Shown here in pieces: positions 29,573 to 47,979 of a stretch of 64,000 bases of DNA. The position numbers were made by a program, and so were the translations under genes. Origin of the DNA: Spirosoma sp. SC4-14 (GTDB taxonomy: Bacteria > Bacteroidota > Bacteroidia > Cytophagales > Spirosomataceae); assembly GCF_037201965.1 (NCBI RefSeq), contig NZ_CP147518.1:1735001-1799000 (forward strand), given 5' to 3'. Numbering within the stretch: the first letter of the stretch is position 1; each line of letters starts with the position of its first letter. The notes beneath the pieces were generated by a model, which had not been told where the DNA came from, ran no database searches, and worked only from the letters and a program-made list of their open reading frames with translations.

Positions 29573-29616
29573 GTGACATATATCACGGAACGGGGCCAAC
29601 AGTGTGTGTAGTTTTG
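29573..29616 (+). promoter_or_regulatory. Crp-type operator and -7 box, rhodanese gene (site 1)
   Basis: The palindrome GTGACATATATCAC (29573-29586) is followed by TAGTTTTG (29609-29616), an exact -7 consensus. Centre to last -7 base is 36.5 bp, which puts the operator near -42 of the start of transcription, a class II activator position. Confidence 0.75.
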
Positions 29617-29641
29617 TTTAACAATAAAATCAGGCAAGACA

Positions 29642-29947
29642 ATGATGAATCTATTTAAATCGGTATTTGGCGGAGCTAATACTTCCAATATAGATGACGT
29701 ACTGGCTCAGGGGGCTGTAATTATTGATGTTCGCTCGCCGGGTGAGTTTGCTGGTGGTCATGCAAAAGGAGCCGTAAATATTCCGCTGGATCAGCTCGAA
29801 TCGAACGTGGGTAAAGTGAAGAATTATAAGAAGCCGATCGTCGTTTGTTGTGCATCGGGAATGCGGAGTGCTCGTGCCAAAGCAATTCTGGCGAGCCGGG
29901 GCGTAACCGACCTGCACGATGCCGGTAGCTGGCAGAATATAAAATAA
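29642..29947 (+). CDS. Single-domain rhodanese
   Basis: The 101-residue cytoplasmic sulfurtransferase has the rhodanese active-site loop CASGMRS with catalytic Cys70, and the preceding IIDVRSPGEFAGGHAKGA segment. Its small size is normal for GlpE/PspE-type proteins. It moves sulfane sulfur between thiols such as glutathione persulfide, thiosulfate or thioredoxin. It stands alone and divergent from the rest of the sulfur island but shares the same operator. Confidence 0.92.
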   Translation: MMNLFKSVFGGANTSNIDDVLAQGAVIIDVRSPGEFAGGHAKGAVNIPLDQLESNVGKVKNYKKPIVVCCASGMRSARAKAILASRGVTDLHDAGSWQNIK

Positions 29948-30001
29948 ATGTTGTTAGTGACAGGGTAGTTAGGTTTGCCAATAGGTCGGGTGGTTTAGTG
30001 A

Positions 30002-30037
30002 AAAAAAAGCGCAGACAAGTTTAGTCGCGCTTTTTTT
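30002..30037. terminator. Bidirectional terminator
   Basis: AAAAAAAGCGC (30002-30012) and GCGCTTTTTTT (30027-30037) form an 11-bp stem with U-runs both ways, between the convergent rhodanese and OsmC genes. Confidence 0.85.
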
Positions 30038-30057
30038 ATTCTCTCTCCAATAAACCG

Positions 30058-30507
30058 CTAATCATACTCCTTTACGGCAATCCGAATGCTGGGATTCATG
30101 ATAACCCGTGCGCGGATGGAATTAGAAATCAGGCAGTTTTTTTCGGTTTTATGAAGCACTCGCTGCGCCTTTTCCTGGTCACTTTCGTCGGTAAGGAGTA
30201 CCTTGGGAAACAGTTTAACTTCGCTGATTTGTAACGTACCATCTATACTTTCGAGTTTTCCGATAGCGCCACAGTCAAAATCTTCGAAATCAAGTTTTGA
30301 GTTTTCGGCAATGGCCAGAAACGTGGTCATGAAACAACCCGCTACGGCAGCAACCAGCAAATGTTCCGGCGACCACACTCCCGGCATTCCTTTCGGAAAT
30401 TCGGGCGGTGTGGCTACTTCAATGGTGTCGGTTAATGTGGAGGCACTGAGCTGGCCTAAACGCGAATACTGCCAGCCCAGATTTACTTCATAATAATGCG
30501 GTTCCAT
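30058..30507 (-). CDS. OsmC family peroxiredoxin-like protein
   Basis: The 149-residue protein has the two OsmC/Ohr cysteines, Cys58 in AVAGCFMTT and Cys125 in TEKNCLISN, with a SPEHLLVAAVAG helix. Members reduce organic hydroperoxides or, in some bacteria, act on sulfane-sulfur species. It follows the MBL-rhodanese gene by 72 bp with a strong hairpin between them, and it has no operator of its own, so it may be expressed by read-through. Confidence 0.88.
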   Translation of the reverse strand: MEPHYYEVNLGWQYSRLGQLSASTLTDTIEVATPPEFPKGMPGVWSPEHLLVAAVAGCFMTTFLAIAENSKLDFEDFDCGAIGKLESIDGTLQISEVKLFPKVLLTDESDQEKAQRVLHKTEKNCLISNSIRARVIMNPSIRIAVKEYD

Positions 30508-30526
30508 ATTATAGTACGTTTAACTG

Positions 30527-30571: not shown

Positions 30572-30579
30572 AGGTATAG

Positions 30580-31992
30580 TTACAGAAGAGTAGTTGGGCA
30601 AACGTAATCGGTTAGTGGTAGCTTACCCGTTTTCTTAATGGCCGCAAAGCCACCGGCAACGTCGATCAGGTTATCGAATCCCCGGGCTTTTAGAATCGAA
30701 ATGGCAACCATCGACCGGTAACCACCTGCGCAGTGAACATAGTAGGTTTTGTCGCGGTCAATACGAGCCATGTTATCATTCAAATAATCGAGGGGTAAAT
30801 TTTCCACTCCTTCCACGTGTTCGGATTCATACTCGCTTTTCCGGCGAACATCCAATACGGGTAATTCTGGGTTTTTTGTATAGAGCTCAGCAAACGTTTC
30901 GGCCGAAATAGACGTAACGCTGTCAACTTCCCGGCCTTCGGCCTGCCAGCCAGCAAAGCCACCCCGCAAATACCCAATACAGTTGTCGTAGCCGACGCGG
31001 GCCAGCCGCAACACGGCTTCTTCTTCCTTGCCTTCGGGCGTAACGAGCAGAATCGGTTGTTTCAGATCGGGAACCAGTGTGCCAACCCAACCGGCAAACT
31101 GACCTTCCAGGCCAACATTAATGGCGTTTGGAATAAACCCTTTGGCAAACTCCTGCGCTGCCCGAACATCCAGAATCAAGGCTCCCACCTCATTGGCTGC
31201 GGCTTCGAATGCGGCTGGCGACAAAGCCTGCGTACCTTGCCGAATAGCCGAATCGATGCTGCCATAGCCCATTTTGTTTAGAACGGCATTTTTAGGGAAA
31301 TACTGCGGAGGTGGCATGAGGCCGGTCGTTACTTCTTTCACAAACTCCGCTTTGGTTTGCGCACGCAATGCATAGTTGAACCGCTTCTGATTACCCAGCG
31401 TATCAGTCGTTTCTCTGCTCATGTTTTTACCACAGGCCGATCCTGCACCATGTCCTGGATAGACGATCACATCGTCGGGCAAGGTCATAATTTTAGTATG
31501 CAGGCTGTCGTACAGATAACCGGCCAGGTCTTCGCGGGTCAGATCGGTCTTCACGGCCAGATCGGGGCGGCCAACATCGCCAATGAACAGCGTATCGCCC
31601 GTAAAAATGGCGGTTTGCTTCCCGTTCTCATCAATCAGTAAAAATGTCGACGATTCCATTGTATGCCCTGGCGTGTGCAGTACCCGGATTTTTACGTTGC
31701 CAAGCGGAAACTCTTCGCCGTCGGTTGCGACATGAGCCGCGTAGGCCGGTTGCGCTGTAGGGCCAAAGACAATAGTAGCACCGGTTTTAGCCGCAAGATC
31801 GAGGTGACCCGATACAAAATCGGCGTGGAAATGGGTCTCGAAAATATACTTGACCGTAGCCCCGTCGGTGGCTGCCCGTTCTATGTATGGTTTTGTTTCA
31901 CGAAGTGGGTCGATAATGGCGGCTTCGCCTTCACTTTCAATATAATAAGCGGCCTCAGCCAAACAACCGGTATAGATTTGTTCTACTTTCAT
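30580..31992 (-). CDS. MBL-fold/double-rhodanese persulfide dioxygenase-like protein (paralogue 1)
   Basis: The 470-residue protein has an ETHE1-like metallo-beta-lactamase domain (residues 1-250, ETHFHADFVSGH with iron ligands His54, His56, Asp58 and a later HTPGHTMES), then two rhodanese domains. In the first (about 265-360) the active-site position is Thr318, so it is probably inactive. The second has Cys421 in HCAGGYRS. Proteins of this plan oxidise glutathione or other thiol persulfides to sulfite and thiol and pass sulfur on. The neighbour on the upstream side is sulfide:quinone oxidoreductase, the persulfide producer. A Crp-type operator lies 64 bp upstream of the start codon. Confidence 0.9.
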   Translation of the reverse strand: MKVEQIYTGCLAEAAYYIESEGEAAIIDPLRETKPYIERAATDGATVKYIFETHFHADFVSGHLDLAAKTGATIVFGPTAQPAYAAHVATDGEEFPLGNVKIRVLHTPGHTMESSTFLLIDENGKQTAIFTGDTLFIGDVGRPDLAVKTDLTREDLAGYLYDSLHTKIMTLPDDVIVYPGHGAGSACGKNMSRETTDTLGNQKRFNYALRAQTKAEFVKEVTTGLMPPPQYFPKNAVLNKMGYGSIDSAIRQGTQALSPAAFEAAANEVGALILDVRAAQEFAKGFIPNAINVGLEGQFAGWVGTLVPDLKQPILLVTPEGKEEEAVLRLARVGYDNCIGYLRGGFAGWQAEGREVDSVTSISAETFAELYTKNPELPVLDVRRKSEYESEHVEGVENLPLDYLNDNMARIDRDKTYYVHCAGGYRSMVAISILKARGFDNLIDVAGGFAAIKKTGKLPLTDYVCPTTLL

Positions 31993-32019: not shown

Positions 32020-32063
32020 CAAAATTGGTTGTTGGGCGAGGCCCGTTCTGTGATGTTTGTTAC
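32020..32063 (-). promoter_or_regulatory. Crp-type operator and -7 box (site 2)
   Basis: GTGATGTTTGTTAC at 32050-32063 and, on the minus strand, CAATTTTG at 32020-32027. Centre to -7 end is 36.5 bp. It drives the MBL-rhodanese paralogue 1 gene. Confidence 0.7.
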
Positions 32064-32090: not shown

Positions 32091-33296
32091 TCAGGCCTTG
32101 CCGGTCAGGATTCGGTGCCAGTACATCCAGGGTAGCATATATTTTTTGAGGAGCCACATGGTCCAGCGCGGCACGGCCTGATCGAAGGGGAAGGTCATTT
32201 TTGGTTTGTTTGAATAGTCGAATTCGGCCAGCATCAGTTTGCCATATTCGGTTGGTATGGGGCAGGCCGTATAGCCGTCATACTGCGCACTGGACTGCGT
32301 TTTGTGCAGATAAGCCAATAGGTGCTCAACCATAACCGGAGCCTGTTTCCGAATGGCTGCTCCGGTTTTTGAGGTAGGTGCATTGCTCACATCGCCACAG
32401 GCAAAGATGTTGGGGAAACGAGTGTGCTGGAACGTAAACTTATTGACCTCTACCCACCCCAGTGGTTGTGATGGATCGGCCAGCGGACTGTTTTTGATAA
32501 AATCCGGTGCCGATTGTGGGGGCGTAATATGCGCCATATCGAACTGAAGCGATTGCTTCACCACGTTTCCGTCGGCATCTTTCCCTTCGAAGTAAATAGT
32601 ATGATTTGGACCATCGATTTCCGTAACATTCTGGGAAAAATGCGTTTTGATGCGGTAGCGTTTCAGGAGCCCTTCAAGTGTTCGGGCAAACTCTTTCACG
32701 GCGAAAATAGCTCCGGCTCCCGATACATAATGCACCTCAGTATTGGCCAGTACGCCGTTTTTGCGCCAGTAGTCGCAGGCCAGATACATGATTTTGTGCG
32801 GAGCACCACCGCATTTAACAGGTGTTGTGGGGTTGGTAAATACCGCGACTCCTCCTTTAAAATTGCGGATCAGTTCCCAGGTATATGGGGCCGTCTGGAA
32901 CGAGTAGTTGCTCGATACATTGTTTTTGCCCAGCGTTTCCTGAAACCCTTTGATCTTGCTCCAGTCGAGTTGAATACCTGGCACGACCATCAGCGCATTG
33001 TAGGTATACATAGCACCGCTCTGGCAGGTTACCTGATTCTGGTCGGGTTGAAAGGTAGCAACGGCATCCCGAATCCACTCGGCTCCATGGGGTATGTAAT
33101 CCCGTTCGTTTTTCTCGGTATCCCGAACATCAAACTGACCCGCTCCCACGAGTGTCCAGGCGGGTTGATAATAGTGTTTGTCCGATGGTTCGATTATGCC
33201 AATCTGTAATGACGGATCTTTATGAAGCAGTTGTGCCGTAGCCGACAGGCCCGCATTGCCTCCGCCAACAACCAGTACTTGAAAATGAGTAGCCAT
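32091..33296 (-). CDS. sqr: Sulfide:quinone oxidoreductase, type II (SQOR-like)
   Basis: The FAD enzyme of 401 residues oxidises sulfide to a protein or low-molecular-weight persulfide and passes electrons to menaquinone. It has VVGGGNAG (9-16) for FAD, and the two redox cysteines of the mitochondrial-type group, Cys162 in PVKCGGAPH and Cys345 in YTACPIPTEYG, plus GDVSNAPTSKTGAA and C-terminal amphipathic membrane-contact helices (TMWLLKKYMLPWMYWH). I start at the ATG at 33296, because in-frame codons up to 33371 lie in the promoter and in the previous terminator. It has its own Crp-type operator. Confidence 0.92.
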   Translation of the reverse strand: MATHFQVLVVGGGNAGLSATAQLLHKDPSLQIGIIEPSDKHYYQPAWTLVGAGQFDVRDTEKNERDYIPHGAEWIRDAVATFQPDQNQVTCQSGAMYTYNALMVVPGIQLDWSKIKGFQETLGKNNVSSNYSFQTAPYTWELIRNFKGGVAVFTNPTTPVKCGGAPHKIMYLACDYWRKNGVLANTEVHYVSGAGAIFAVKEFARTLEGLLKRYRIKTHFSQNVTEIDGPNHTIYFEGKDADGNVVKQSLQFDMAHITPPQSAPDFIKNSPLADPSQPLGWVEVNKFTFQHTRFPNIFACGDVSNAPTSKTGAAIRKQAPVMVEHLLAYLHKTQSSAQYDGYTACPIPTEYGKLMLAEFDYSNKPKMTFPFDQAVPRWTMWLLKKYMLPWMYWHRILTGKA

Positions 33297-33320: not shown

Positions 33321-33364
33321 TAAAAATAGGCCATAAAAAAGCGGTAGTATGTAACATATATCAC
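33321..33364 (-). promoter_or_regulatory. Crp-type operator and -7 box, sqr (site 3)
   Basis: GTAACATATATCAC at 33351-33364 with TATTTTTA on the minus strand at 33321-33328 (one mismatch to TAnnTTTG at the last base). Centre to -7 end is 36.5 bp. The palindrome sits inside the hairpin of the upstream terminator. Confidence 0.65.
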
Positions 33365-33400: not shown

Positions 33401-33883
33401 TCAATGAGGGAGCTTGTTGCGCAGGTAGCCGTATGCCCAGGTACCCGCAACGGCGCTCAGTAAAGTTGTGATTATAACTACATAACCGCTACCGATCTGG
33501 GCGAACAATGGCCCCGGACAGGCGCCAGTAATGGCCCAGCCCAGCCCAAACAGCAGCCCACCGAAAATTTGCCCTTTGTTGAATTTTTTGGGATGAAACT
33601 CAACCGTTTCGCCCGACATTGTTTTGATGTTGAAGCGTTTGATGAGCCAGACTGAAATCATACCGACCACGATAGCTGAACCAATTACGCCGTACATATG
33701 AAAGCTCTGAAGCCGGAACATTTCCTGAATTCGGAACCACGAAATGATTTCGGCTTTTACGAACACAATACCAAACATAACCCCAACCACCAGGTATTTG
33801 AGGTTAGCGGTCCAGCTTTCCGTTTTTTTCATGTCGTTGGGTGCATCGCATACCAACGCATCAGGTGTTATTACATTTTGCAT
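33401..33883 (-). CDS. YeeE/YedE family sulfur transporter (DUF6691 half)
   Basis: The 160-residue membrane protein has about four transmembrane segments and the conserved LGWAITGACPGP with Cys122, the family residue thought to relay sulfane sulfur or thiosulfate across the membrane. It is one half of a split YeeE/YedE pair; the other half is the next gene upstream. The pair follows a porin gene and should move reduced sulfur across both membranes. Direction of transport cannot be read from sequence. Confidence 0.85.
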   Translation of the reverse strand: MQNVITPDALVCDAPNDMKKTESWTANLKYLVVGVMFGIVFVKAEIISWFRIQEMFRLQSFHMYGVIGSAIVVGMISVWLIKRFNIKTMSGETVEFHPKKFNKGQIFGGLLFGLGWAITGACPGPLFAQIGSGYVVIITTLLSAVAGTWAYGYLRNKLPH

Positions 33884-34001: not shown

Positions 34002-34574
34002 TTAAAACAATTTCATTAGATGGGGAAGAATCAGGTGGGTCATGGCGAAGCCGCCGACCATGAAGCAGCAGGTAGCTACCAGCGACGGCCACTGCAGGTT
34101 CGATAAGCCCATGATGGCGTGTCCTGAGGTGCAACCGCCCGCCCAGCGCGTACCAAAACCGACCATGAAGCCGCCCAGCACAAAAAACACCAGACCTTTC
34201 AGAGTAAACAGATTGGCCGCATCAAACAAATCGGCAGGCATCAGGCCCGAAAAATCCCGAATGCCCAGCGCTTTCAGGTCGGCAATGGTGGCCGACGAGA
34301 GTTGAAACGAATCAGGGTTTTCCAGGAAGGTTGTGGCTAAAAAGCCGCCCATTAACACCCCAACCACAAAAAACAGGTTCCAGATTTCTTTTTTCCAGTT
34401 GTATTGGAAGAAGGGAATGTTGGCGGGCATACAGGCCGCGCAAATGTGCCGGAGCGACGACGAAATACCGAACGATTTGTTTCCGATAAGTAATAAAGTA
34501 GGAACTGTAAGTCCAATAAGCGGCCCGGCCACATACCACGGCCAGGGTTTCCGGATGAGGTCAATAAACTCCAT
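34002..34574 (-). CDS. YeeE/YedE family sulfur transporter (larger half)
   Basis: The 190-residue membrane protein has about five transmembrane segments and the family motif RWAGGCTSGHAIMG with Cys148, plus further cysteines at 45, 48, 169 and 170. The motif equals the substrate-relay site of the thiosulfate transporter TsuA. The start codon is 8 bp after the porin stop codon, so the genes are translated from one mRNA. Role inferred: thiosulfate or polysulfide uptake or export. Confidence 0.87.
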   Translation of the reverse strand: MEFIDLIRKPWPWYVAGPLIGLTVPTLLLIGNKSFGISSSLRHICAACMPANIPFFQYNWKKEIWNLFFVVGVLMGGFLATTFLENPDSFQLSSATIADLKALGIRDFSGLMPADLFDAANLFTLKGLVFFVLGGFMVGFGTRWAGGCTSGHAIMGLSNLQWPSLVATCCFMVGGFAMTHLILPHLMKLF

Positions 34575-34582: not shown

Positions 34583-35971
34583 TTATAAACGATAGTTGAG
34601 AATTACATTTAGTTGATTCATACCTACGCGATTGTAGACATATCGATTATTATCGTAGGTGTTGCCAGCGTTGGTTTTTAATACCCATAATACCTGAACA
34701 TCTAAACCATTTAAAAAATTACTTAACCGATAGGTAAGAGCTAGATTGGCTTGCGTATAGGAGGGCATTCCATATTTATTCAGAACAACGTTTTTAACAT
34801 CGGGCAACTGATAGTATCCGAAACTGGCTTCAGCTTTAATACGTTTTCCAGGCGTGTAGAAAAGGTTCGTGCTGACGGCCGTTACATCACCAAAGCCGTC
34901 GTTCTTCTCCCGCATCAGAAACGTATAGAATGGATCGCGGCCCCATTCGCGTGGCATCAGATAGCGCCCTTCGGCAGTGATACGGGTAGCATTCAGATAC
35001 GTAGCCCAGCGAGTGGTTTGGTAACCTACCCGCCCCGACACTATCAGCGATCGATTGCCGGGCTGATCGTAGGCTTTGGCTGCTTCGGCGTTGCCCCCGT
35101 CGCCAATGCTCCATTGTCGGGCCAGTTGAAAACCGGCCACTACCTGCCGCTTTTCTCCGGTTGGCAGGCTCATATCGGCCTTCGCATAAGCCACATTAAA
35201 GATGTTCTGTACGTGTGTGTCCCAGAGTTGAAGCGTCACGTTTCCCAACGTTTGCGTCAGGCTGAGTTGGCTAATGCCTGCCGATTGTGTGTTGCCCGCA
35301 TACTGCGAGGCTTTGCCGGTATTATCGATACCAACTGGATACAAACCGATGCTTTCGCCTACGTTAAACCAGCCTATTGTGGAGCGTGGGGCCATGCGTG
35401 TCAGGTATTCGGCATGGATTTTTGTATTGGCCAATTCATTCCAGTCCAACACAATGCCCTCTACAAACGTGGGCGACAACCGGCCATCCTGTGGGTTGAT
35501 GAATGGGCTTCTTGGTAGCTGTCGGCCGAGCGTAATGGTCGATTTTTTCCCGAACTGGTATTGAACATACAATTCTTCGAATCGGCTCAATAAGGCGTGA
35601 TTACCTGGATTTTGCAGGTCGAAGAGGCCAATTTCATAGCGGTTTAATTGATTGGTTTGCGGATCGCGGGCGGCTAGATCGGACGATAGCAGCTTTTTAC
35701 TGAAAAACCCGCTGCCCGCTATTTTTAAATGGTTGAAAAGGCGCGGTGTCTGATAACCAAGCCCTACGCCAATACCCCAGGCATATGAGTCGGTCAGGTC
35801 GTCCTGGTTGTCAGTAGCCATAAAAAACGACCGGGCACGTATCAGAAATCGATCCCGACCAAGCCAGCGTTGCTGTTGAGTGGTGAGTGTATCTGGTCGA
35901 TTAGCCCATACGGCCATATTATTGGCCGATAGGCCTAAAATCAGCCCGAAAATCGATAAGCGTCGGATCAT
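34583..35971 (-). CDS. Outer-membrane porin (OprD-like)
   Basis: The 462-residue protein has a signal peptide (cleavage near VWA, residues 22-24) and a barrel of roughly 16-18 strands ending in the aromatic-type terminus LNVILNYRL. Features of OprD-like channels include GRQLPRSPFINPQDGR and a middle GIVLDWNEL. As the first gene of the porin-YeeE-YeeE unit it is likely to admit sulfur anions through the outer membrane. The family call is by overall pattern and is less certain than the barrel itself. Confidence 0.75.
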   Translation of the reverse strand: MIRRLSIFGLILGLSANNMAVWANRPDTLTTQQQRWLGRDRFLIRARSFFMATDNQDDLTDSYAWGIGVGLGYQTPRLFNHLKIAGSGFFSKKLLSSDLAARDPQTNQLNRYEIGLFDLQNPGNHALLSRFEELYVQYQFGKKSTITLGRQLPRSPFINPQDGRLSPTFVEGIVLDWNELANTKIHAEYLTRMAPRSTIGWFNVGESIGLYPVGIDNTGKASQYAGNTQSAGISQLSLTQTLGNVTLQLWDTHVQNIFNVAYAKADMSLPTGEKRQVVAGFQLARQWSIGDGGNAEAAKAYDQPGNRSLIVSGRVGYQTTRWATYLNATRITAEGRYLMPREWGRDPFYTFLMREKNDGFGDVTAVSTNLFYTPGKRIKAEASFGYYQLPDVKNVVLNKYGMPSYTQANLALTYRLSNFLNGLDVQVLWVLKTNAGNTYDNNRYVYNRVGMNQLNVILNYRL

Positions 35972-36101: not shown

Positions 36102-36479
36102 CTAAAGCCCGCCCTTAATATAGGCCCAGCCCTGTTCCTGTTTAAGAATGAGTTCGACGATGGCAACGGGAACCGTTTCGACAAAGGGTAGCATATCGGC
36201 AAGGCTTAACTGCTTGCTGCGAAGGCTGTTTTCACACACAACGAACCGGACATGGTGCGAATCGGCAAAAGTCTGTAACTGACGGGCATGCTGGGTTTGC
36301 TGAGTAGTAACCAGGCTGATGCCGGGGCCATGAACAACTACTTCAATTTCGACCTCTGGCCATGCCGCCAATAGATTTTTCAGATTACTGATCAGCGCTT
36401 TCTGCGAAGCCACATCGGGCGACACAAACTGAAACACAACCCGGTGGCCGTTGCCCGAGTCAGGGGAGGAGAGGTTCAT
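36102..36479 (-). CDS. DsrE family sulfur carrier-like protein
   Basis: The 125-residue cytoplasmic protein has the DsrE fold pattern: VVFQFVSPD at the start, EVEIEVVVHGPG, and VCENSLRSK with Cys82, the persulfide-carrying position of the family. It is the last gene of the unit with the TsdA-like cytochrome. A second, secreted DsrE protein with the same CEN(S/T)LR motif is encoded at 43751. It probably accepts sulfur from the oxidation products made upstream. Confidence 0.85.
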   Translation of the reverse strand: MNLSSPDSGNGHRVVFQFVSPDVASQKALISNLKNLLAAWPEVEIEVVVHGPGISLVTTQQTQHARQLQTFADSHHVRFVVCENSLRSKQLSLADMLPFVETVPVAIVELILKQEQGWAYIKGGL

Positions 36480-36566: not shown

Positions 36567-37622
36567 CTACATTTTCTTCGCGGCTTCGATGGGTTTAAAC
36601 GGCCCAAATTTATGCTGTTTTTCGGAAAACGAATCGGCATAGGGGCCAAACGGATGATCGACCGGTTTTTTAGCGATGTTGGGCCAGTCTTTGCTGAGGT
36701 CTTTGGTTGGCCGGGGCATCGAGTTAATAAAGGCGGCAATGTCCCAGGCTTCCTCATCACTTAGCTGAGGACTATCCCAACTAGCTCCCAGCGGCATATT
36801 GGCCTTGATATAGCCCGCCAGCCGCGAAATGCGAAACAGGCCGGCTCCCTGGTTATAGCTATGGGGCCCCCACACTGGCGGAAACGTATAGCCACTACCG
36901 TCGGGTTTGGCAATGCCCTGCCCCGTTGCGCCATGACAGCTTATGCATTTTTGCTGATACGCCAGTTTCCCTTTTGCAGGATCGGCGGCCCGGTCGAGGT
37001 AAGGCACTTTCCAAATGCCCGAACCGTTGGGGCTTTCGCCTTTCGGAACGCCATCGCCCAGAAAATGGATATAGGCTACAATGGCTTTCATTTCGCGGCT
37101 ATTGCTGTCGAGATCTTTTCCGTTCAAACTCCGTTCAAAACAGTCGTTCACCCGTTTTACGATGCCTTCCGTTGAGCCGGAGCGAGCCCGAAACTTTGGG
37201 TACGTAGCTGCCACGGCGCTATAGTTGTTACCCCAGGGCTTGGTTCCGGCATCCAGATGGCAATTCTGACAATTCATGCCATTAGAAATAGGCGCTATCG
37301 TTCCGGCTGGGCCCAGATATTGGGCTGTATTGGCAATAAGTTCTTTACCATATTGAATCAACTCCCCGTTTTTTGCTGTTTTCATGCCCGATTCGACAGG
37401 AGCCTGCCAGAGCGGTTTTTCGGTATCGACTGGTTTCGCTGTTGCCAATGTCGTTGCCTGCGCTGCCAGTTCGGGCGTTTTGGCCGATGGCGTTAGCCAG
37501 CCAAAACGCAGTGCAATCAGTATAGCAGTGGCCACGGTAGCCACTATCAGCAATCCGGACAGCGCCAGCAAGGTCCGTTGGAGCGATTGGATGGTTTGCT
37601 CAAAAGGGTCTTTCGCTTGCAT
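36567..37622 (-). CDS. tsdA: Dihaem c-type cytochrome, thiosulfate dehydrogenase (TsdA)-like
   Basis: The 351-residue protein has an N-terminal membrane anchor (about 17-39) and two haem sites, CQNCH (118-122) and CISCH (226-230). Cys161 in VNDCFERSLNGK matches the unusual cysteine ligand of haem 1 in TsdA, and Met276 in IKANMPLG is the likely second-haem ligand. TsdA couples two thiosulfate molecules to tetrathionate, or the reverse, in the periplasm. A SoxAX-like or other thiol oxidation role is the alternative. The gene lies between a small membrane protein and DsrE in one operon. Confidence 0.87.
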   Translation of the reverse strand: MQAKDPFEQTIQSLQRTLLALSGLLIVATVATAILIALRFGWLTPSAKTPELAAQATTLATAKPVDTEKPLWQAPVESGMKTAKNGELIQYGKELIANTAQYLGPAGTIAPISNGMNCQNCHLDAGTKPWGNNYSAVAATYPKFRARSGSTEGIVKRVNDCFERSLNGKDLDSNSREMKAIVAYIHFLGDGVPKGESPNGSGIWKVPYLDRAADPAKGKLAYQQKCISCHGATGQGIAKPDGSGYTFPPVWGPHSYNQGAGLFRISRLAGYIKANMPLGASWDSPQLSDEEAWDIAAFINSMPRPTKDLSKDWPNIAKKPVDHPFGPYADSFSEKQHKFGPFKPIEAAKKM

Positions 37623-41388: not shown

Positions 41389-41784
41389 TTACTGATGAAT
41401 AGGGTTAATCGGATTTCCGGCCTCTATCCAGCTCCGAATGCCATTGGTCAGGTTATAGATTCTGGCAAACCCCTGCTCTGAGAGATACTTTGCCGCCTGA
41501 GCGCTTCGACCACCAACGGCGCAATACAGAAATACTGGCTGATTTTTGTTCAGTTTGCTGATTTGTTCCTCAAAATCGGATTTATAAATATCGATCTGGT
41601 GAGCATCGCCAATCACGCCCTGCCCTACTTCCTGATCGGTACGCAGGTCGATAAGCTGGTGAGGGGTTGTGTTCGCAAGGGTAGTCTTAAAGTCGGCCGG
41701 GGATAAATGGTGTATGGTCGACTCATGGGAACCGCAATTCCACAGGAGCGGGCTTAGGAACAGTATTGTCAGAAAAATACGCAT
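41389..41784 (-). CDS. Rhodanese-like lipoprotein
   Basis: The 131-residue protein carries a lipoprotein signal (LLWNC, Cys17) and one rhodanese domain with the active-site loop YCAVGGRS (Cys88). It should sit in the periplasm, anchored to a membrane, where it can use thiosulfate or polysulfide. It is the first gene of a unit with the sterol desaturase-like enzyme and has its own Crp-type operator. Confidence 0.9.
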   Translation of the reverse strand: MRIFLTILFLSPLLWNCGSHESTIHHLSPADFKTTLANTTPHQLIDLRTDQEVGQGVIGDAHQIDIYKSDFEEQISKLNKNQPVFLYCAVGGRSAQAAKYLSEQGFARIYNLTNGIRSWIEAGNPINPIHQ

Positions 41785-41803: not shown

Positions 41804-41847
41804 CAAATTTCTCGCGGCTAACCCCCATATTCAGTGATAAGAATCAC
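41804..41847 (-). promoter_or_regulatory. Crp-type operator and -7 box, rhodanese lipoprotein operon (site 6)
   Basis: GTGATAAGAATCAC at 41834-41847 with GAAATTTG on the minus strand at 41804-41811. Centre to -7 end is 36.5 bp. Confidence 0.7.
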
Positions 41848-41911: not shown

Positions 41912-42508
41912 TTACTTTTTTCGGGCCATCAGCCGGATCACGCAGGCTGAGCCATTATGGTATGCTCCCTCGCGGAGGTCGACGTAGGTTTCTTCTGCTT
42001 TCAGGATTTCCAACTCCTTAAAATCGTCCAGCAAGTCGGTGCGGCTATAGAGCATATCGGAGTTTTGTGGTCCGCCCGAACTTCGGCCAAGCTGCTCTTT
42101 ATGGAATGCTTCCAGCATCAGATAGCCAGAAGGCTTAAGGAACGAGATGAGTCGTTGATGAACTGCTCGTCGGTCGGCCGAAGGCATATGCGCATAAATC
42201 AACCCAATCAGATCGTAAGTATTGGCCGGTGCGGTGAAATTCTGTAGTGTATTTGTTTCATATTGAATGGTTGTGCAGGCCCCACCCGCTAATTGTAAGG
42301 CTTTCTTTCGGGCTGCCGGGCTATAATCGAACGCATCGACGGCCCACCCTCGAAGCGCTGCATAAACGGCGTTGCGGCCTTCGCCTTCGGCTGGGAGCAA
42401 CAGCCGACCGGGTTTTAGCTTGTCGATACACTCTTTGAAAAACTCGTTGGGCTTTGTGCCATAGGCATACGACGAGCTTTTGTAGCGCGTTTCCCAGAAT
42501 TCGTTCAT
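41912..42508 (-). CDS. SAM-dependent methyltransferase (TehB/TPMT-like)
   Basis: The 198-residue class I methyltransferase has the start FWETRYKSSSYAYGTKPN, the SAM-binding motif LLLPAEGEGRNAVYAA (a variant of the glycine-rich loop) and AFDYSPAARKKA. This form resembles tellurite-resistance TehB and thiopurine S-methyltransferase relatives that methylate toxic chalcogen anions or thiols. Its start lies 2 bp after the thioredoxin stop, so it is part of the sulfur operon. Methylation of sulfide or a related thiol is a reasonable guess. Confidence 0.8.
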   Translation of the reverse strand: MNEFWETRYKSSSYAYGTKPNEFFKECIDKLKPGRLLLPAEGEGRNAVYAALRGWAVDAFDYSPAARKKALQLAGGACTTIQYETNTLQNFTAPANTYDLIGLIYAHMPSADRRAVHQRLISFLKPSGYLMLEAFHKEQLGRSSGGPQNSDMLYSRTDLLDDFKELEILKAEETYVDLREGAYHNGSACVIRLMARKK

Positions 42509-42510
42509 GG

Positions 42511-42831
42511 CTAGGTGGCGGATTCAAACTGATTGACAACGTGTTCCAGTTGATGCGCCTGTACTACTCCCGATTGCCGCCAGACGATCTGCCCTTTTTG
42601 AAATAAAATCAGCGTAGGTACTCCCTGAATACGGTAAGCATTGGCGACAAGGGGACTCTGATCGACATCAATTTTGAGAACCCGCACCCGACCGCCCATT
42701 CGTCCGGCAAAGTCTTTCAGAATGGGAGCCATCATTTTGCAGGGGCCACACCACTCGGCCGAGAAATCGACCAGCACGGGAGTTTCGCCCTGGATTATCT
42801 CATTAAATGTTTCTTTTCGCTGTGTTTCCAT
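42511..42831 (-). CDS. Thioredoxin
   Basis: The 106-residue cytoplasmic protein has the redox motif WCGPC (Cys28, Cys31), the cis-proline region VPTLILF and FSAEW before the motif, all normal for thioredoxin. It overlaps the end of the preceding small membrane gene and abuts the methyltransferase gene. In this setting it probably reduces persulfides on rhodanese or DsrE proteins. Confidence 0.93.
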   Translation of the reverse strand: METQRKETFNEIIQGETPVLVDFSAEWCGPCKMMAPILKDFAGRMGGRVRVLKIDVDQSPLVANAYRIQGVPTLILFQKGQIVWRQSGVVQAHQLEHVVNQFESAT

Positions 42832-43048
42832 GACTGTTCATTAGGTACTGAATGAGTTGATGTAGTAAATCGCCCAGCAGAAATCCCATAATTCCTCCCC
42901 AGAGGGTCATGGATTGCCAGTGCGACTGGATAGGACAGTGCCCTGTCAGGCAGCCCACCTCGCGCCAGTACGCAAAGCCGCTTAGTGCGCCCAACAGTGC
43001 CCCTGCCCACATCCACCACCAGTTAGTGGATTTCTTCATACTGTACAT
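42803..43048 (-). CDS. Small membrane protein (DUF6132-like)
   Basis: The 81-residue protein has two transmembrane segments separated by a short loop with REVGCLTGHCPIQSHW, whose paired cysteines are typical of a small family found near rhodaneses and thioredoxins in Bacteroidota. An internal ATG at 43039 is an alternative start. Both ends overlap neighbouring genes (26 bp and 29 bp), which points to translational coupling. Confidence 0.75.
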   Translation of the reverse strand: MYSMKKSTNWWWMWAGALLGALSGFAYWREVGCLTGHCPIQSHWQSMTLWGGIMGFLLGDLLHQLIQYLMNSHGNTAKRNI

Positions 43049-43274
43049 CGTCTACGGACTTTTCAGCGTTGGTGTTTGTTGTTCGGTTGGTGGGCCGAGG
43101 TATTCCGCATCCTGCAGCACCACATCCCACATTCAGGATGGCTTGCAGCAGAAGCATACCGCCCAGTAATCCGAGTAAAGGTTGCTTATCTGCGAACGCA
43201 CTCCAAATGATAGCGCTGCCAGCCAACAGCCGGACAATCCGCATTACGTCCCAGTTTTTTACTAAGGTTTCCAT
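43023..43274 (-). CDS. DUF2892-like small membrane protein
   Basis: The 83-residue protein begins METLVKNWDVMRIVRLLAGS, the usual DUF2892 start, and has two hydrophobic helices with NVGCGAAGCGIPRP at the end of the second. Proteins of this group are fused to rhodanese in YgaP. The Cys pair may carry sulfur. It is followed by an overlapping small membrane gene in the same operon. Confidence 0.8.
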   Translation of the reverse strand: METLVKNWDVMRIVRLLAGSAIIWSAFADKQPLLGLLGGMLLLQAILNVGCGAAGCGIPRPTNRTTNTNAEKSVDDVQYEEIH

Positions 43275-43350
43275 AAATAGGTTTACTCCAGACTCGCCAG
43301 AGACTTTATGTTATTACAGATGAATCGTTCCAATGCTCAATTTACTGATA

Positions 43351-43566
43351 CTAATTAGCGTGTTTGCGCTGACGATTTGTTCGAATGCCAAACGGAAGGT
43401 AGAGCGGGCAAACACTAACCAGGCTGGTGAGAATGAACACCCCCGCCAGAACCAGGCTAACAATTCCCCAGATACCGGTAAGAATTCCGCCCGCATACAG
43501 GCCAGTCAGAACAATTGCAAGGAGCAGTCGGATAATCCGGTCTGCTGAACCCATATTCTTAATCAT
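43351..43566 (-). CDS. DUF2892 membrane protein (YgaP-tail-like)
   Basis: The 71-residue protein starts at the ATG at 43566 (MIKNMGSADRIIR) and has two transmembrane helices ending in VSVCPLYLPFGI, the classic DUF2892 C-terminus. The longer frame up to 43644 would cover the operator and is rejected. It is the first gene of a five-gene unit with a second DUF2892, a small Cys-containing membrane protein, thioredoxin and methyltransferase. Confidence 0.85.
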   Translation of the reverse strand: MIKNMGSADRIIRLLLAIVLTGLYAGGILTGIWGIVSLVLAGVFILTSLVSVCPLYLPFGIRTNRQRKHAN

Positions 43567-43600: not shown

Positions 43601-43674
43601 CTAAGAAAACGTAAACCGAAACCGAATTCCGTGATAAAAATCACATTCGACTATGATCAATACCCATAACTTAG
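43601..43674. promoter_or_regulatory. Crp-type operator with -7-like boxes on both sides (site 7)
   Basis: GTGATAAAAATCAC at 43631-43644 lies between divergent units. At exactly 36.5 bp from its centre there is TAACTTAG on the plus strand (43667-43674, for DsrE) and a weaker TTTCTTAG on the minus strand (43601-43608, for DUF2892). Confidence 0.6.
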
Positions 43675-43750
43675 CCGTCACTGGTCAATGGCTCAGTTCG
43701 AGATGAACAAGTCATTGACTACTCTGAATTAAGTGTTAATCAAATCGTTT

Positions 43751-44194
43751 ATGAACTATCTGTCAATCAGCTTATTTCTGCTGTCAATTCTGTTCGGTAA
43801 GGCTTCCTCTGCCCAGACAACGTTTCACGGTGCCGAAGCCACAATGTCAACCTATCGGGTGGTATATCAGCTGAATACCGACGACGAAGGGAAAATAAAA
43901 GCTACCCTGAAAAACATACAGAATGCGCTGTCGGACCCGCGTTTACACGGAAAACTGGACGTCGAGCTCGTGGTGCATGGGGGTGGAGTTGCCGTATTTA
44001 AAAAGGGAAGCCCATTTGAACAAACCCTGCTGGATTTGCAAAAACACGGGGTCATTCTGGCTCAGTGTGAGAATACGTTGCGGGAGCGTAAAATCAGCAA
44101 GGATGAGCTATTGCCATTTATTGGATACACCCCTAGCGGCAATGGCGAACTGATTATTCGACAGCAACAGGGCTGGGCTATTGTTCACCCATAA
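43751..44194 (+). CDS. Secreted DsrE family protein
   Basis: The 147-residue protein starts at the ATG at 43751, giving a signal peptide (cleavage near SSAQ, residue 22). The mature part has the DsrE pattern with YRVVYQLNTDD, VELVVHGGGV and LAQCENTLRERK, where Cys106 is the expected persulfide residue. It is a periplasmic relative of the cytoplasmic protein encoded at 36102. It faces the DUF2892 operon across a shared operator. Confidence 0.85.
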   Translation: MNYLSISLFLLSILFGKASSAQTTFHGAEATMSTYRVVYQLNTDDEGKIKATLKNIQNALSDPRLHGKLDVELVVHGGGVAVFKKGSPFEQTLLDLQKHGVILAQCENTLRERKISKDELLPFIGYTPSGNGELIIRQQQGWAIVHP

Positions 44195-44254: not shown

Positions 44255-44680
44255 TTATTGAAGCACCTGCGATTCTGTTGTTTTCGCGGGTGCTTTGGTG
44301 TTGTCTTTAGCCAGAGCAGGGCGGTAGTCGACAAAGAAATTGATCCAGGTTCGGCGGGCAAGCCGGAAGAAAAATGGGGTTAATGCAATCAGCGACGGAA
44401 TAAGTCCGATCAGGTAATAGTCGAGATTGATGTCGAGGATGGTGTAGCAGAGCACAAACGAACTGATGATAAACGCTACGTAATAGGCGTAGCTGACATA
44501 CAGGGCTCCCGTAAAAAAGCCCGGTTCTGGCGAATACCGCAGCTTGCAGTGGCTACACTGTTCGTGCATTTTGTCGAACTGCTTCAGGTTGTAGGCGCTT
44601 TGGCTAACAAAAAAATCGCCCTCCTGACAGCGAGGACATTTATTGAAAAGAATGCTATATAGTTTGGTCCCTTTTAACAT
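44255..44680 (-). CDS. DUF983 membrane protein
   Basis: The 141-residue protein has the DUF983 zinc-ribbon-like start, NKCPRCQEGDFF followed by HEQCSHCKLRYSPEPGFFTGA, and then two transmembrane segments. The CxxC pairs may bind metal. DUF983 is widespread in Bacteroidota and uncharacterised. Its presence under the strongest operator/-7 combination in the island suggests a link to sulfur or redox metabolism. Confidence 0.88.
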   Translation of the reverse strand: MLKGTKLYSILFNKCPRCQEGDFFVSQSAYNLKQFDKMHEQCSHCKLRYSPEPGFFTGALYVSYAYYVAFIISSFVLCYTILDINLDYYLIGLIPSLIALTPFFFRLARRTWINFFVDYRPALAKDNTKAPAKTTESQVLQ

Positions 44681-44741
44681 GGCGCAGGTACGTTGAAAGT
44701 GCAGATCACGGCTGTTGTTATGTCGATGATCATTGATGAAA

Positions 44742-44785
44742 CAAAAGTAAGATGCGACTAAGCCGTAATCTGTGATAATTGTTAC
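44742..44785 (-). promoter_or_regulatory. Crp-type operator and -7 box, DUF983 gene (site 8)
   Basis: GTGATAATTGTTAC at 44772-44785 with TACTTTTG on the minus strand at 44742-44749, a perfect TAnnTTTG. Centre to -7 end is 36.5 bp. Confidence 0.75.
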
Positions 44786-44920
44786 ACAGGAACCTGATTT
44801 TAGTAAGCTTCTGGTATCGTTAACTAAGCGGTAGAGATTGTAAAAGCAAATCCTGTCAAAAACTTCTTCGACAGGATTTGCATGATCAGCAGGATTCTTT
44901 TTTGGTTGCTGAACTGATAG

Positions 44921-46339
44921 CTAGCTTTTCTTCAGGGTGCTTGGGCAGACGTAATCGGTAGTTTTGATACGGCCGGTTTTCTGAATGGCTGCAAAGCCCC
45001 CCGCCACATCGACTACATTGTCATAGCCCCGCGATTTCAGAATCGAAGCGGCCATCATCGAGCGGTAGCCGCCCGCACAGTGGATGTAGAACGTTTCACT
45101 TTTAGGGAACTCGGCCATATGCTCACTAATATAGTCGAGAGGAATATTTTGTGCGCCATCGATATGCTCTGCCGAAAACTCGCCGGGTTTTCGCACGTCG
45201 ATAATCGGGATGGTGCCCTGTTCGAGTTTGTCAGCCAGGTTATCGGCCGAAATCGAAGTAATGGTATCTACTTCTTTACCGCTGGCAGCCCAGGCATCGA
45301 TGCCACCGGCCAGATAGCCCAGCACCTGATCGTAGCCCACGCGGGCCAGGCGGGTCAGCGTTTCCTGCTCGGTGCCAGGTTCGCAAATCAGCAGCAACTC
45401 CTGCCGAACATCGGGAATCAGCGCACCAACCCAGGGCGCAAACTGTCCGCCCAGACCAATGTTAATTGAGTTTGGAATAAAGCCTTTGTTGAATACCTGG
45501 GCTGAACGTACGTCGAGCACAACAGCGCCCGTTTCGTTGGCGGCTGCTTCGAACGCGTCGGGGCTCAGCGGCTGAGCGCCCCGGTTCAGCACGGTGTCGA
45601 TACTTTCATAACCCTGCTTGTTCATCATCACGTTTTGTGGGAAATATTTCGGCGGAGCCAGCAGCCCGTCGGTTACTTCGTTGATGAATTCGTTGCGGGT
45701 CATGTTGGCACGCAGCGCATAGTTGAACAACTTCTGATTGCCCAGCGTGTCGGTGGTTTCCTTACTCATGTTTTTGCCACAGGCCGAACCCGCCCCGTGG
45801 GCCGGGTAAACGATCACATCGTTGGGCAAGGTCATGATTTTATTCCGCAGCGAGTCGAATAGATAACCTGCTAAGTCGTCCATTGTCAGATCGGATTTCT
45901 GTGCCAGATCAGGACGGCCTACATCGCCAATGAACAGCGTGTCGCCACTAAACAGCGCGGTTTCTTTGCCCGCTTCATTGATCAGCAGGTAGCAGGTCGA
46001 TTCCATTGTATGCCCCGGTGTGTGCAATACGCGGATTTTTACCTGTCCCAGCGAGAGTTCTTCCCCATCTTTAGCAATGTAGGCGTCGAAACCGGTCTGG
46101 GCATTGGGGCCGTAGACGATGGTAGCACCGGTTTGTTTGGCCAGGTCGAGGTGGCCCGATACAAAATCGGCATGGAAATGCGTTTCCAGCACGTATTTGA
46201 TGGTAGCTCCTTCGCGTTCGGCCCGTTCGATATAGGGTTTTACTTCACGGAGGGGATCAATAATAGCTACTTCGCCAGCACTTTCGATATAATAGGCCCC
46301 CTGAGCGAGGCAGCCGGTATAAATTTGTTCTATTTTCAT
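44921..46339 (-). CDS. MBL-fold/double-rhodanese persulfide dioxygenase-like protein (paralogue 2)
   Basis: The protein of 472 residues is a close paralogue of that at 30580 with the same MBL motif THFHADFVSGH and catalytic Cys421 in HCAGGYRS of the second rhodanese. It differs in the first rhodanese domain: Cys319 (LLLICEPG) stands where paralogue 1 has Thr. The ATG at 46339 (MKIEQIYTG) matches the paralogue start. It follows TauE by 31 bp, so persulfide oxidation to sulfite and sulfite export are on one mRNA. Confidence 0.9.
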   Translation of the reverse strand: MKIEQIYTGCLAQGAYYIESAGEVAIIDPLREVKPYIERAEREGATIKYVLETHFHADFVSGHLDLAKQTGATIVYGPNAQTGFDAYIAKDGEELSLGQVKIRVLHTPGHTMESTCYLLINEAGKETALFSGDTLFIGDVGRPDLAQKSDLTMDDLAGYLFDSLRNKIMTLPNDVIVYPAHGAGSACGKNMSKETTDTLGNQKLFNYALRANMTRNEFINEVTDGLLAPPKYFPQNVMMNKQGYESIDTVLNRGAQPLSPDAFEAAANETGAVVLDVRSAQVFNKGFIPNSINIGLGGQFAPWVGALIPDVRQELLLICEPGTEQETLTRLARVGYDQVLGYLAGGIDAWAASGKEVDTITSISADNLADKLEQGTIPIIDVRKPGEFSAEHIDGAQNIPLDYISEHMAEFPKSETFYIHCAGGYRSMMAASILKSRGYDNVVDVAGGFAAIQKTGRIKTTDYVCPSTLKKS

Positions 46340-46370
46340 GGTCGTTGTCGATTGACAAATGGAGTCTGTA

Positions 46371-47186
46371 TTAATGAAATGAGTTAGAAACGAGTTCTTT
46401 CGCGATGATGTAAACTCCCATAATGAGTACAAACCAGCCAAAGGCTTTTTTTAGTTTCTGCCCCGGAACATACCGGGATAGATAGGAACCAACAAAAATA
46501 CCGACTACTGAAAGGGCCGTAAATTCGAGCAGAAACGGCCAGTCGACGTGCATGTTAGACAAATCGCCCAAAAAACCGATCAGCGATTTGGCCGCAATGA
46601 TCAACAGCGAAGTACCAACCGCCATTTTCATCGGTAGCCGTGCCAGCAATACCAGCGCCGGAATAATCAGGAATCCGCCACCAGCACCCACAATGCCTGT
46701 GAGTGTACCAACCAGTGCACCTTCGAGGGCAATCAGGGGTAAGTTAAACTGAACGCTGTTGGGTTCGTTGCCCGTTTCGCTTTTTTTATCCCGGATCATC
46801 GAAATAGATGCGGCCAGCATAACCAGCGCAAAAAATAACATGATGGCAACATTCCGACTGAGGGTGAAGGTTCCCATCGTCAGAACAGGGTCGGGAAGGG
46901 CCGGAACCAGGTATTTCCGGGTTAGAAAAACGGCTAAAAAGGAAGGAAGCGCAAAAACAAAGGCAGCCCGATAGTTGATTTGCTCTTTTCGCATGTAGTT
47001 AACCGATCCTACGAGGGAGGTAGTGCCAACAACAAACAGGGAGTAGGCCGTTGAGATGACGGGGCTGATTCCCATCAGATATACCAGAACCGGGAGCGTC
47101 AATATGCTGCCACCACCGCCAATCAGGCCGAGGCTTACGCCAATAAATATGGATGAAAAAAAGCCGATAAGTTGAATAGTAGTCAT
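46371..47186 (-). CDS. TauE/SafE family sulfite exporter
   Basis: The 271-residue membrane protein has about eight transmembrane segments in two halves, each with the family glycine motif (GLIGGGGSILTLP and GIVGAGGGFLIIP). The ATG at 47186 is chosen because the -7 box at 47205-47212 excludes the longer TTG form. Location next to a persulfide dioxygenase-like gene supports export of sulfite or another sulfur anion. Confidence 0.9.
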   Translation of the reverse strand: MTTIQLIGFFSSIFIGVSLGLIGGGGSILTLPVLVYLMGISPVISTAYSLFVVGTTSLVGSVNYMRKEQINYRAAFVFALPSFLAVFLTRKYLVPALPDPVLTMGTFTLSRNVAIMLFFALVMLAASISMIRDKKSETGNEPNSVQFNLPLIALEGALVGTLTGIVGAGGGFLIIPALVLLARLPMKMAVGTSLLIIAAKSLIGFLGDLSNMHVDWPFLLEFTALSVVGIFVGSYLSRYVPGQKLKKAFGWFVLIMGVYIIAKELVSNSFH

Positions 47187-47204
47187 GCCTGTTAAACTTT
47201 TAAG

Positions 47205-47248
47205 CAAAACAACAGCATGGCCAAAGGCTTTTCCGTGATAATTGTTAC
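47205..47248 (-). promoter_or_regulatory. Crp-type operator and -7 box, TauE operon (site 9)
   Basis: GTGATAATTGTTAC at 47235-47248 with TTGTTTTG on the minus strand at 47205-47212. Centre to -7 end is 36.5 bp. Confidence 0.7.
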
Positions 47249-47337
47249 ACAGGCGATTTAACGGTCATTTGTTATTAGCCTTTGGCGTTATTGGCATTGG
47301 CCTGGTAACGATTAAATAACCAATCCGCTAATGACCA

Positions 47338-47979
47338 TCAAACCGTCATCATTTCGATTTTGCCGCGCAGGAGCTTCAGCTTTTTCATTTTTTCGAGCTG
47401 TTTGAGCAGCCGCGATATGACTTCGCGCGAGGTGGCCAGCTCATTGGCAATTTCTTCGTGGGTGATGGTTAGTTCGCGACACTGGCAGCTTTGCGTCTTT
47501 TTCTGAAGGTAAGTCAGCAGGCGCTCGTCCAGTTTATGAAATGTTACCTCGTCGATAGTGGCCAGCAGATTATCGAATCGTTTCTGATAGGTCTGGAAAA
47601 CAAACTGCTTCCAGGTCGAGTAGCGGCACATCCACTCGTCGACCTTATCGACCGGAATCGAAACGAGTTCGGTTTCTTCTTCGGCTACAGCCGTAATTTC
47701 GCTCCGGCGGCTGCCCAGACAGCAGGTAAGCGACATGGCGCAGGCGTCTAATCCGCCCAGATAATACAGCAACGCTTCGCGGCCTTCCTGATCGGGCCGC
47801 ATAATCTTGACAGAGCCGTGAATAATAATCGGTACCGACCGTATATATTCGCCGGGACGAATCAGGTAAGCCCCCGCCGGAACAGTCTTGTGCTGGCCGG
47901 TCTGCGCTAATTCTTCCAGTAATTTATATTCAAATTGCCCTTTAAAAATTTCCTGTAACTCGTTAACGGTAATGGTCAT
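47338..47979 (-). CDS. Crp/Fnr family regulator, probable master of the sulfur island
   Basis: The 213-residue protein has a cyclic-nucleotide-binding-like beta-roll (about 20-115), a dimer helix, and a winged helix-turn-helix (about 170-205). The recognition helix reads SREVISR with Arg185, Glu186 and Arg190, the same residues that read GTGA in E. coli Crp, in agreement with the GTGA half-sites found nearby. Six cysteines occur, with a cluster at Cys80, Cys86, Cys87 (CAMSLTCC) in the sensor domain, plus Cys118, Cys165 and Cys167. The cNMP-binding arginine motif is not evident, so thiol or persulfide sensing is more likely than cAMP. No operator precedes its own gene. Confidence 0.88.
   Translation of the reverse strand: MTITVNELQEIFKGQFEYKLLEELAQTGQHKTVPAGAYLIRPGEYIRSVPIIIHGSVKIMRPDQEGREALLYYLGGLDACAMSLTCCLGSRRSEITAVAEEETELVSIPVDKVDEWMCRYSTWKQFVFQTYQKRFDNLLATIDEVTFHKLDERLLTYLQKKTQSCQCRELTITHEEIANELATSREVISRLLKQLEKMKKLKLLRGKIEMMTV

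Follow-up and report, generated by a model that had tools for sequence, protein, structure and literature searches.

Nine operators at a fixed distance from -7 boxes in a Spirosoma sulfur gene island, and a candidate regulon of its Crp/Fnr-family regulator

A sulfur gene island and its nine operators

The stretch of the Spirosoma sp. SC4-14 genome analyzed here (64,000 nucleotides of contig NZ_CP147518.1, positions 1,735,001 to 1,799,000; hereafter the window) holds an island of sulfur-related genes that ends in a gene for a Crp/Fnr-family regulator. Nine palindromic operators are distributed among these genes, each near a -7 box of the Bacteroidota type. The island very probably constitutes a self-contained regulon for sulfide and sulfane sulfur under the control of its own regulator, with activation of the class II type.

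At the left end of the island lies a plus-strand gene for a rhodanese domain protein (29642..29947). The remaining genes, assigned largely by Pfam, are on the minus strand, apart from one plus-strand gene for a DsrE family protein (DsrE2, 43733..44194). They encode an OsmC-like protein (30058..30507), a persulfide dioxygenase-like protein with an MBL fold and two rhodanese stretches (30580..31992; its NCBIfam matches, Blh included, are below cut-off), and a sulfide:quinone reductase (SQR)-like flavoprotein (32091..33296), whose match to the type III family falls below the curated cut-off. Next to these are a YeeE/YedE sulfur transport pair with Pfam Sulf_transp domains (33401-33883 and 34002-34574), an OprD-family outer-membrane porin (34583..35971), a DsrE family protein (DsrE1, 36102..36479), and a cytochrome c with SoxA/TsdA and CBB3-type domains (36567..37622). 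An open reading frame (ORF) of 84 amino acids (37643-37897) lies between the box at 37922 and this cytochrome gene; at a threshold of E<=1, neither Pfam nor a tblastn search of seven relatives gave a match to it. Further along are genes for an 829-amino acid protein (38085-40574; unmatched in Pfam at E<=1 and in NCBIfam at E<=0.001), a protein of the fatty-acid-hydroxylase family (40471-41385), and a second rhodanese (41389-41784), which form one unit by strand and gaps. The stretch from 41912 to 43566 encodes a methyltransferase, a thioredoxin, a DUF6132-like protein (weak match), and two YgaP-like transmembrane proteins (YgaP-TM and TM83), one of them below cut-off. A DUF983 protein, a second MBL-rhodanese (B), and a TauE/SafE exporter follow (44255..47207). 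The regulator itself (47338..47979) has 213 amino acids, cNMP_binding and HTH_Crp_2 domains by Pfam, a CX5C pair (Cys80/Cys86), and a helix with Arg185, Glu186, and Arg190.

The operator motif, GTRAY-N4-RTYAC (GTRAYNNNNRTYAC), matches the window exactly 9 times, against 0.76 expected. The rhodanese gene at 29642-29947 is headed on the plus strand by operator GTGACATATATCAC (29573-29586) and the -7 box TAGTTTTG (29609-29616). On the minus strand, the operator at 32050-32063, with box CAATTTTG at 32020-32027, heads the first MBL-rhodanese gene (30580-31992) and the OsmC gene (30058-30507), while that at 33351-33364 heads the SQR gene (ATG at about 33296) through an imperfect box, TATTTTTA (33321-33328), which deviates from TTTG at the final base. 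The porin, YeeE2, and YeeE1 genes stand behind the operator at 36030-36043 and box GAGCTTTG (36000-36007), and the 84-amino acid ORF, the SoxA/TsdA-type cytochrome c gene, and DsrE1 behind the operator at 37952-37965 and box GACTTTTG (37922-37929). The unit of the second rhodanese, the hydroxylase family protein, and the 829-amino acid protein is headed by the operator at 41834-41847 with box GAAATTTG (41804-41811). A divergent operator at 43631-43644 has the box TAACTTAG on its plus side (43667-43674), toward DsrE2 (43733-44194), and a weak box, TTTCTTAG, on its minus side (43601-43608), toward the genes for YgaP-TM, TM83, the DUF6132-like protein, the thioredoxin, and the methyltransferase. 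The last two minus-strand operators, at 44772-44785 with box TACTTTTG (44742-44749) and at 47235-47248 with box TTGTTTTG (47205-47212), head the DUF983 gene (44255-44680) and the genes for TauE/SafE (46371-47207) and MBL-rhodanese B (44921-46441), respectively.

These observations confirm the original prediction for the island, for which the evidence proved stronger than first stated. All nine palindromes it named are present and are the sole matches in the window, and they are confined to intergenic regions, provided that chance ORFs are disregarded and that SQR and the YgaP-type gene are shortened from their over-long GTG starts. A box at 36.5 bp from the operator centre, which it had proposed for every site, is seen as an exact TTTG on the gene side, 30 bases past the 14-mer, in 7 of the 9 operators; the box at 33351 is imperfect, and the operator at 43631 has boxes on both sides, the minus one being weaker. 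Hereafter, a rule site is an operator with TTTG at this offset of 30. The estimate of about 21 genes in site-headed units also agrees with our count, since 21 genes plus the 84-amino acid ORF fall in such units as inferred from strand and gaps. Start codons lie 18-34 nt past the end of the box in eight units (in the TsdA unit, this is the ATG of the 84-amino acid ORF), at 61 nt for DUF983, and at 58 (GTG) or 76 (ATG) nt for DsrE2. No operator was found upstream of the regulator gene within the window.

Motif and spacing in the genome, the family, and the phylum

The bare palindrome occurs 88 times in the whole 8.1-Mb genome. Nine of these in the 17.7 kb of the island, against 0.19 expected, is a figure that carries ascertainment, because the motif was derived from these same sites. 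Outside the island, none of the 82 sides of 41 palindromes (the first 41 of 79 in genome order) had TTTG at the rule offset.

A profile model, R2, was built from 60 rule sites of relatives and zero window sites; as it is blind to the window, selection bias is lessened. In the whole genome, R2 gave 11 matches at E<=10, all in the island, which correspond to the nine operators, two of them matched on both strands. The top match was the porin operator at 36030 (E=2.9e-7); the operator at 29573 scored E=3.4e-5, the SQR operator E=0.012, and the minus side of the divergent operator E=0.065, with those at 32050, 37952, 41834, 44772, and 47235 likewise among the matches. This search scored 150 of 906 first-look candidates, so that weak sites could be missed in this genome.

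In 40 loci around regulator homologues of the same family, which contain 84 palindromes, TTTG stands at offset 30 on 60 of 168 operator sides, compared with a mean of 0.79 at other offsets. When these were pooled with the seven rule sites of the window (67 in all, 3 of which were left out of alignment A1), further conserved bases appeared, none of which had served for selection: position 2 of the box is A in 57, the base just before the operator is T in 53, and the second base after it is G in 47. Only 30 of the boxes begin with T. The promoter-side G recurs in 41 of 59 family sites and 36 of 62 sites of more distant loci. An asymmetry between the half-sites (GTGA proximal versus GTAA distal; 54 versus 31 of 59 in the family) was rejected as a general feature, given 39 versus 37 of 62 in the distant loci; near-identical sites were pruned for this count, as for the residue-186 counts below. 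In each of two loci, L215 and L216 (genomes G002 and G038), one operator is flanked left and right by TTTG at the rule distance, and a rhodanese gene lies to one side of it.

Named genomes were also scanned and yielded 80 loci, including some from Spirosoma, Fibrella, Larkinella, Runella, and Emticicia and, farther away, from Algoriphagus, Maribacter, Aquimarina, Saprospira, Lacibacter, Prolixibacter, and Crocinitomix. As some places recur between the family and named sets (e.g., L074 is the same as L123), only the 68 loci L132-L199, with at most 51% regulator identity, were counted as distant. Here, offset 30 had TTTG on 50 of 214 sides and offset 31 on 17, whereas other offsets averaged 1.25; an offset-30 site was present in 42 of the 68 loci and absent from 26, and no rule site was found in the Saprospira, Prolixibacter, and Crocinitomix loci. 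The offset-31 class comes mostly from Algoriphagus and other Cyclobacteriaceae (L180, L184, L188, L189, and others), often has a good TAnnTTTG box, and carries A at box position 2 in 15 of 18 sites. With this base conserved, the rule is best stated as 36.5 bp with a 37.5-bp variant. Half-sites spaced as TGA-N5-TCA or TGA-N7-TCA were rejected as operators, with 4 and 10 at the rule offset against 3-16 and 3-12 elsewhere in the same 68 loci. A peak at offset 23 (8 of 214 sides) was attributed to the conserved 3' end of the regulator gene, as 7 of its 8 rows are similar downstream, and was discarded as a coding artefact.

In an even sample of the phylum, R2 found a site at E<=0.01 in 38 of 296 genomes, including the genome of the window and one family member, which is a lower bound because the model was trained on one family. 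The loci fetched from outside the family contained an exact rule site in 26 of 28 cases. Of these 26 sites, 20 head genes for rhodanese, MBL-rhodanese, TauE, YeeE, YgaP, or OsmC, and the other six head genes for a thioredoxin, two pyridine-nucleotide disulfide oxidoreductases, two DUF983 proteins, and one outer-membrane efflux protein.

The check originally proposed, a genome-wide scan for motif and spacing, thus gave a non-random result: within the reach of R2, they are confined to the island in this genome, and they recur in relatives. Two other points needed amendment. The distance of 36.5 bp stands as the main one, next to the 37.5-bp variant found mostly in Algoriphagus and other Cyclobacteriaceae. 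The regulon was also described as one of this group, whereas it is present in several lineages of Bacteroidota; that it had not been described is in line with our own literature search, reported below.

The genes behind the rule sites were identified by taking as head gene the longest ORF of at least 65 codons that starts at most 400 nt from the box. Together, the window and the two sets of loci (40 family, 80 named) have 159 rule sides (7 of them the window's own). Behind 128 of these lies a homologue of an island protein, which in 8 cases is the regulator. The commonest heads are MBL-rhodanese, TauE, rhodanese, OprD, and SoxA/TsdA-type genes. Another 29 heads are without similarity to the island, and the 10 that were scanned with Pfam include two SulP sulfate permeases, two peroxiredoxins, an OsmC protein, cytochrome bd subunit I, and an outer-membrane efflux protein. 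The cytochrome bd gene, in a Maribacter locus (L134), starts 397 nt past the box, so that its assignment is loose; cytochrome bd is a sulfide-tolerant oxidase and would fit the regulon.

To define sulfur loci, we used a core set of TauE, MBL-rhodanese, YeeE1, YeeE2, SQR, TsdA, two DsrE proteins, two rhodaneses, and OprD, in which the YeeE pair counts as two; YgaP-type, OsmC, thioredoxin, DUF983, and the remaining genes were outside this count. A rule site was present in 32 of the 34 named loci with two or more core genes. Sites also mark sulfur genes at a distance from the regulator, which in several genomes is encoded far away from them. To follow this, 20 stretches were picked by hand from the listed R2 matches, aimed away from regulators and with their genes unseen beforehand. 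In all 20, an island-type gene directly follows at least one rule site, although 3 (L204, L209, and L210) do hold a regulator homologue or pieces of one.

The regulator and its pairing with the operators

Both Pfam domains of the regulator (PF00027 and PF13545) score above cut-off, which places it in the Crp/Fnr superfamily. Its predicted model has a Crp fold (mean pLDDT 87, pTM 0.64), with fold matches to the CRP family. It does not score as CRP in the strict sense, reaching 51.9 bits with the NCBIfam equivalog NF008732, for which the cut-off is 266. The closest solved relative by sequence is PDB 3dv8 (E=9e-22), a putative Crp/Fnr regulator of Eubacterium rectale that shares the C-x5-C positions and whose source organism belongs to a phylum other than Bacteroidota.

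Regulator and sites occur together. With thresholds of E<=0.01 for the site and E<=1e-20 for the regulator, 101 of 160 family genomes have both, 9 the regulator only, 9 the site only, and 41 neither (Fisher 1e-20). The 36 genomes of the first draw all carry the regulator, and most of them supplied training sites; without them, the numbers are 65, 9, 9, and 41. At E<=0.1, 12 genomes have only the site. Eight of these were searched, and an island-type gene adjoins the site in 13 of 18 loci; 4 of the 5 exceptions belong to a single genome of 63% completeness. In one genome of the same genus (G039), there are three related regulators (L069, L072, and L074), 74-89% identical to that of the window, each of which has sulfur genes close by together with one or more rule sites, and the genome has 15 R2 matches at E<=0.1.

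Substitutions of Glu181 in CRP, including that to Val, alter specificity at the third base pair of the half-site. In Escherichia coli CRP, Glu181 and Arg185 read this base pair (PMC11253593), so that covariation between it and residue 186 of the island regulator is to be expected. We aligned 125 regulators, counting duplicate places twice and leaving a stop-broken copy (L075) out of alignment A3. All 125 have Arg at residues 185 and 190, while residue 186 is either Glu (106) or Val (19). Rule loci hold 84 of the 106 Glu regulators versus 6 of the 19 Val regulators. G occupies the third position in 181 of the 264 half-sites of Glu loci, compared with 2 of 12 in Val-only loci (p 4.6e-4) and 5 of 26 when mixed loci are included (p 1.2e-6), where the Val sample amounts to just 6 sites, or 13 with the mixed loci, and the p-values are too small because related loci are not independent and some places are counted double. 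T at the fifth base occurs in 98 of 264 half-sites of Glu loci and in 0 of 26 of the Val and mixed loci. The Arg185/Glu186/Arg190 helix of the original prediction was thus recovered, and its proposed fit to GTGA half-sites held in part: Glu186 suits a G as the third base, but both A and G occur at this position in the island.

The ligand pocket differs from that of CRP, in which residues 71, 72, 82, 83, 127, and 128 contact cyclic AMP (cAMP) (PMC6603298). The equivalent of Glu72 (aligned position 82) is Met in 80, Leu in 25, Ile in 10, Val in 7, Ala in 2, and His in 1 of the 125 regulators, and Glu in none; that of Arg82 (position 92) is Arg in only 11. In the stretch aligned to this pocket, Cys80 is present in all 125 and Cys86 in 110; the pair is found in 79 of the 90 regulators from loci with rule sites and in 31 of the 35 from loci without. 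None of the 125 has three or more Cys in the first 40 aligned columns, as an FNR-type N-terminal cluster would, residues before the aligned start being outside this view. Sensing of cAMP or through an Fe-S cluster was accordingly judged unlikely.

A proposed mechanism, its alternatives, and its meaning

Class II operators are centred at -41.5. The -7 box of Flavobacterium psychrophilum spans -12 to -5 (PMC9723704); if this holds for the boxes described here, the operator centres would also fall at -41.5. We propose that a dimer of the regulator would bind the GTRAY-N4-RTYAC operators with its centre at about -41.5 relative to the start site, over the place of the -33 element, and may recruit RNA polymerase to the -7 box in the manner of CRP at class II promoters. 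As two cAMP contacts of the N-terminal domain are lost and the CX5C pair lies in the same stretch, the likeliest signal would be reactive sulfur species that modify its thiols, and sulfane sulfur acting on a thiol switch is our best guess.

Several observations weigh against this reading, besides the small Val sample and the relatedness of the loci given above. The equivalent of Ser83, a cAMP contact, is kept in 123 of 125 regulators. Cys80 is equally invariant where rule sites are missing (35 of 35 loci), so that by itself it is no marker of sulfur sensing. Rule sites are present in 24 of the 46 named loci with fewer than two core genes, which indicates that some targets lie outside the core set, and the scanned heads without island similarity also include a 2-hydroxyacid dehydrogenase, a sigma-54 response regulator, and a DUF4394 protein. 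In 6 of 110 genomes with the regulator, the search returned no site at E<=0.1. Conversely, three near-complete genomes of the same genus, G079, G089 (one contig), and G136, keep sites before sulfur genes, while no regulator homologue at E<=0.1 was found in them. Four sites are listed for these genomes, two before TauE-MBL-rhodanese genes and two before rhodanese genes; either the regulator was lost recently, or the sites are read by another protein. In G089, the sole Crp-type helix-turn-helix protein above the Pfam cut-off is by eye an apparent receiver-Crp fusion, without the Arg-Glu-x3-Arg helix.

These genomes bear on the possibility that another Crp paralogue reads the operators, with the island regulator being accessory or one of several. 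We consider this quite improbable. It would explain the sites without a homologue, and the three related regulators of G039 fit it as well, but the covariation between helix and operator points to the family of the island regulator. Moreover, two of the three other Crp-type proteins above the Pfam cut-off in the genome of the window (L269 and L275) were read, and both lack the Arg-Glu-x3-Arg helix, as do the 358/359-amino acid proteins of G089 and G079. Slightly less probable still is repression, in which the operator, overlapping the -33 region, would block polymerase until a sulfur species releases it, as for SqrR, BigR, and CstR. Several characterized sulfane-sulfur sensors are repressors, and an operator at -41.5 could occlude sigma. 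Yet repression does not call for a fixed distance of 36.5 or 37.5 bp, which class II activation would lead one to expect, and the scarcity of T at the first box position also speaks against it. As the distance is strict apart from a single neighbouring variant, and any further preferred offset could be explained, activation by contact is favoured. The notion that the palindromes arose by chance or through the reader's selection could be raised because motif and spacing were taken by eye from nine sites; it is refuted by their recurrence in independent genomes and with the window-blind model.

A more serious alternative, though we still regard it as unlikely, accepts the regulon as described and changes its signal to redox state, nitric oxide, oxygen, or a metal, with sulfur genes merely being the commonest targets. 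The presence of the CX5C pair in most regulators without rule sites and in the sequence of PDB 3dv8 would agree with this, as would heads such as peroxiredoxin, cytochrome bd, and the pyridine-nucleotide disulfide oxidoreductases. Against it stand the dominance of MBL-rhodanese, TauE, rhodanese, OprD, and SoxA/TsdA-type genes among the heads and the lack of an FNR-type N-terminal Cys cluster in all 125 regulators.

Compared with class II activation by E. coli CRP, the proposed system shares the fold family, the Arg-Glu-x3-Arg motif, the GTGA-N6-TCAC layout, and a predicted operator position near -41.5, over the upstream promoter element. It differs in the loss of the Glu72 and Arg82 equivalents (Ser83 being kept), in a -7 box of the form TAnnTTTG in place of a -10 element, in a small regulon that is local in its own genome, in the choice of A or G at the third half-site base, and in the additional promoter-side G two bases past the operator. 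Sulfane-sulfur sensors such as SqrR/BigR, CstR, FisR, OxyR, and MarR-type proteins sense through cysteines, and several control genes for rhodanese, persulfide dioxygenase, SQR, or sulfur transport; they belong to other protein families, and several are repressors. SqrR and BigR are of the ArsR family and CstR is of the CsoR family, while the island regulator has a Crp fold. HcpR, a Crp-type regulator of nitrosative stress in Porphyromonas and others, also uses a GTGA-type palindrome; in contrast, the predicted targets of the island regulator are mostly sulfur genes. The Crp family, the class II layout, the sulfur genes, and the Bacteroidota -7 box are thus all of known kinds, and a regulon that combines them may be undescribed: no description was found among the matches listed from open-licence full-text literature, a search that did not take in the HcpR literature. 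To our knowledge, little is known about activator-promoter geometry in Bacteroidota.

More tentatively, the regulator might represent a widespread class of Bacteroidota Crp proteins that sense sulfane sulfur by a CX5C switch at the place where CRP binds cAMP, activate sulfur-detoxification promoters through a class II contact with the unusual polymerase of Bacteroidota, and retune their operator through the Glu/Val change. The regulon is testable: its operator and spacing are defined exactly and its targets are listed, and it extends over several lineages of a major phylum. Its regulator may be a sulfur sensor from outside the protein families to which such sensors are known to belong, and the Glu/Val change in its helix, matched by a base change in the operator, offers a natural specificity experiment.

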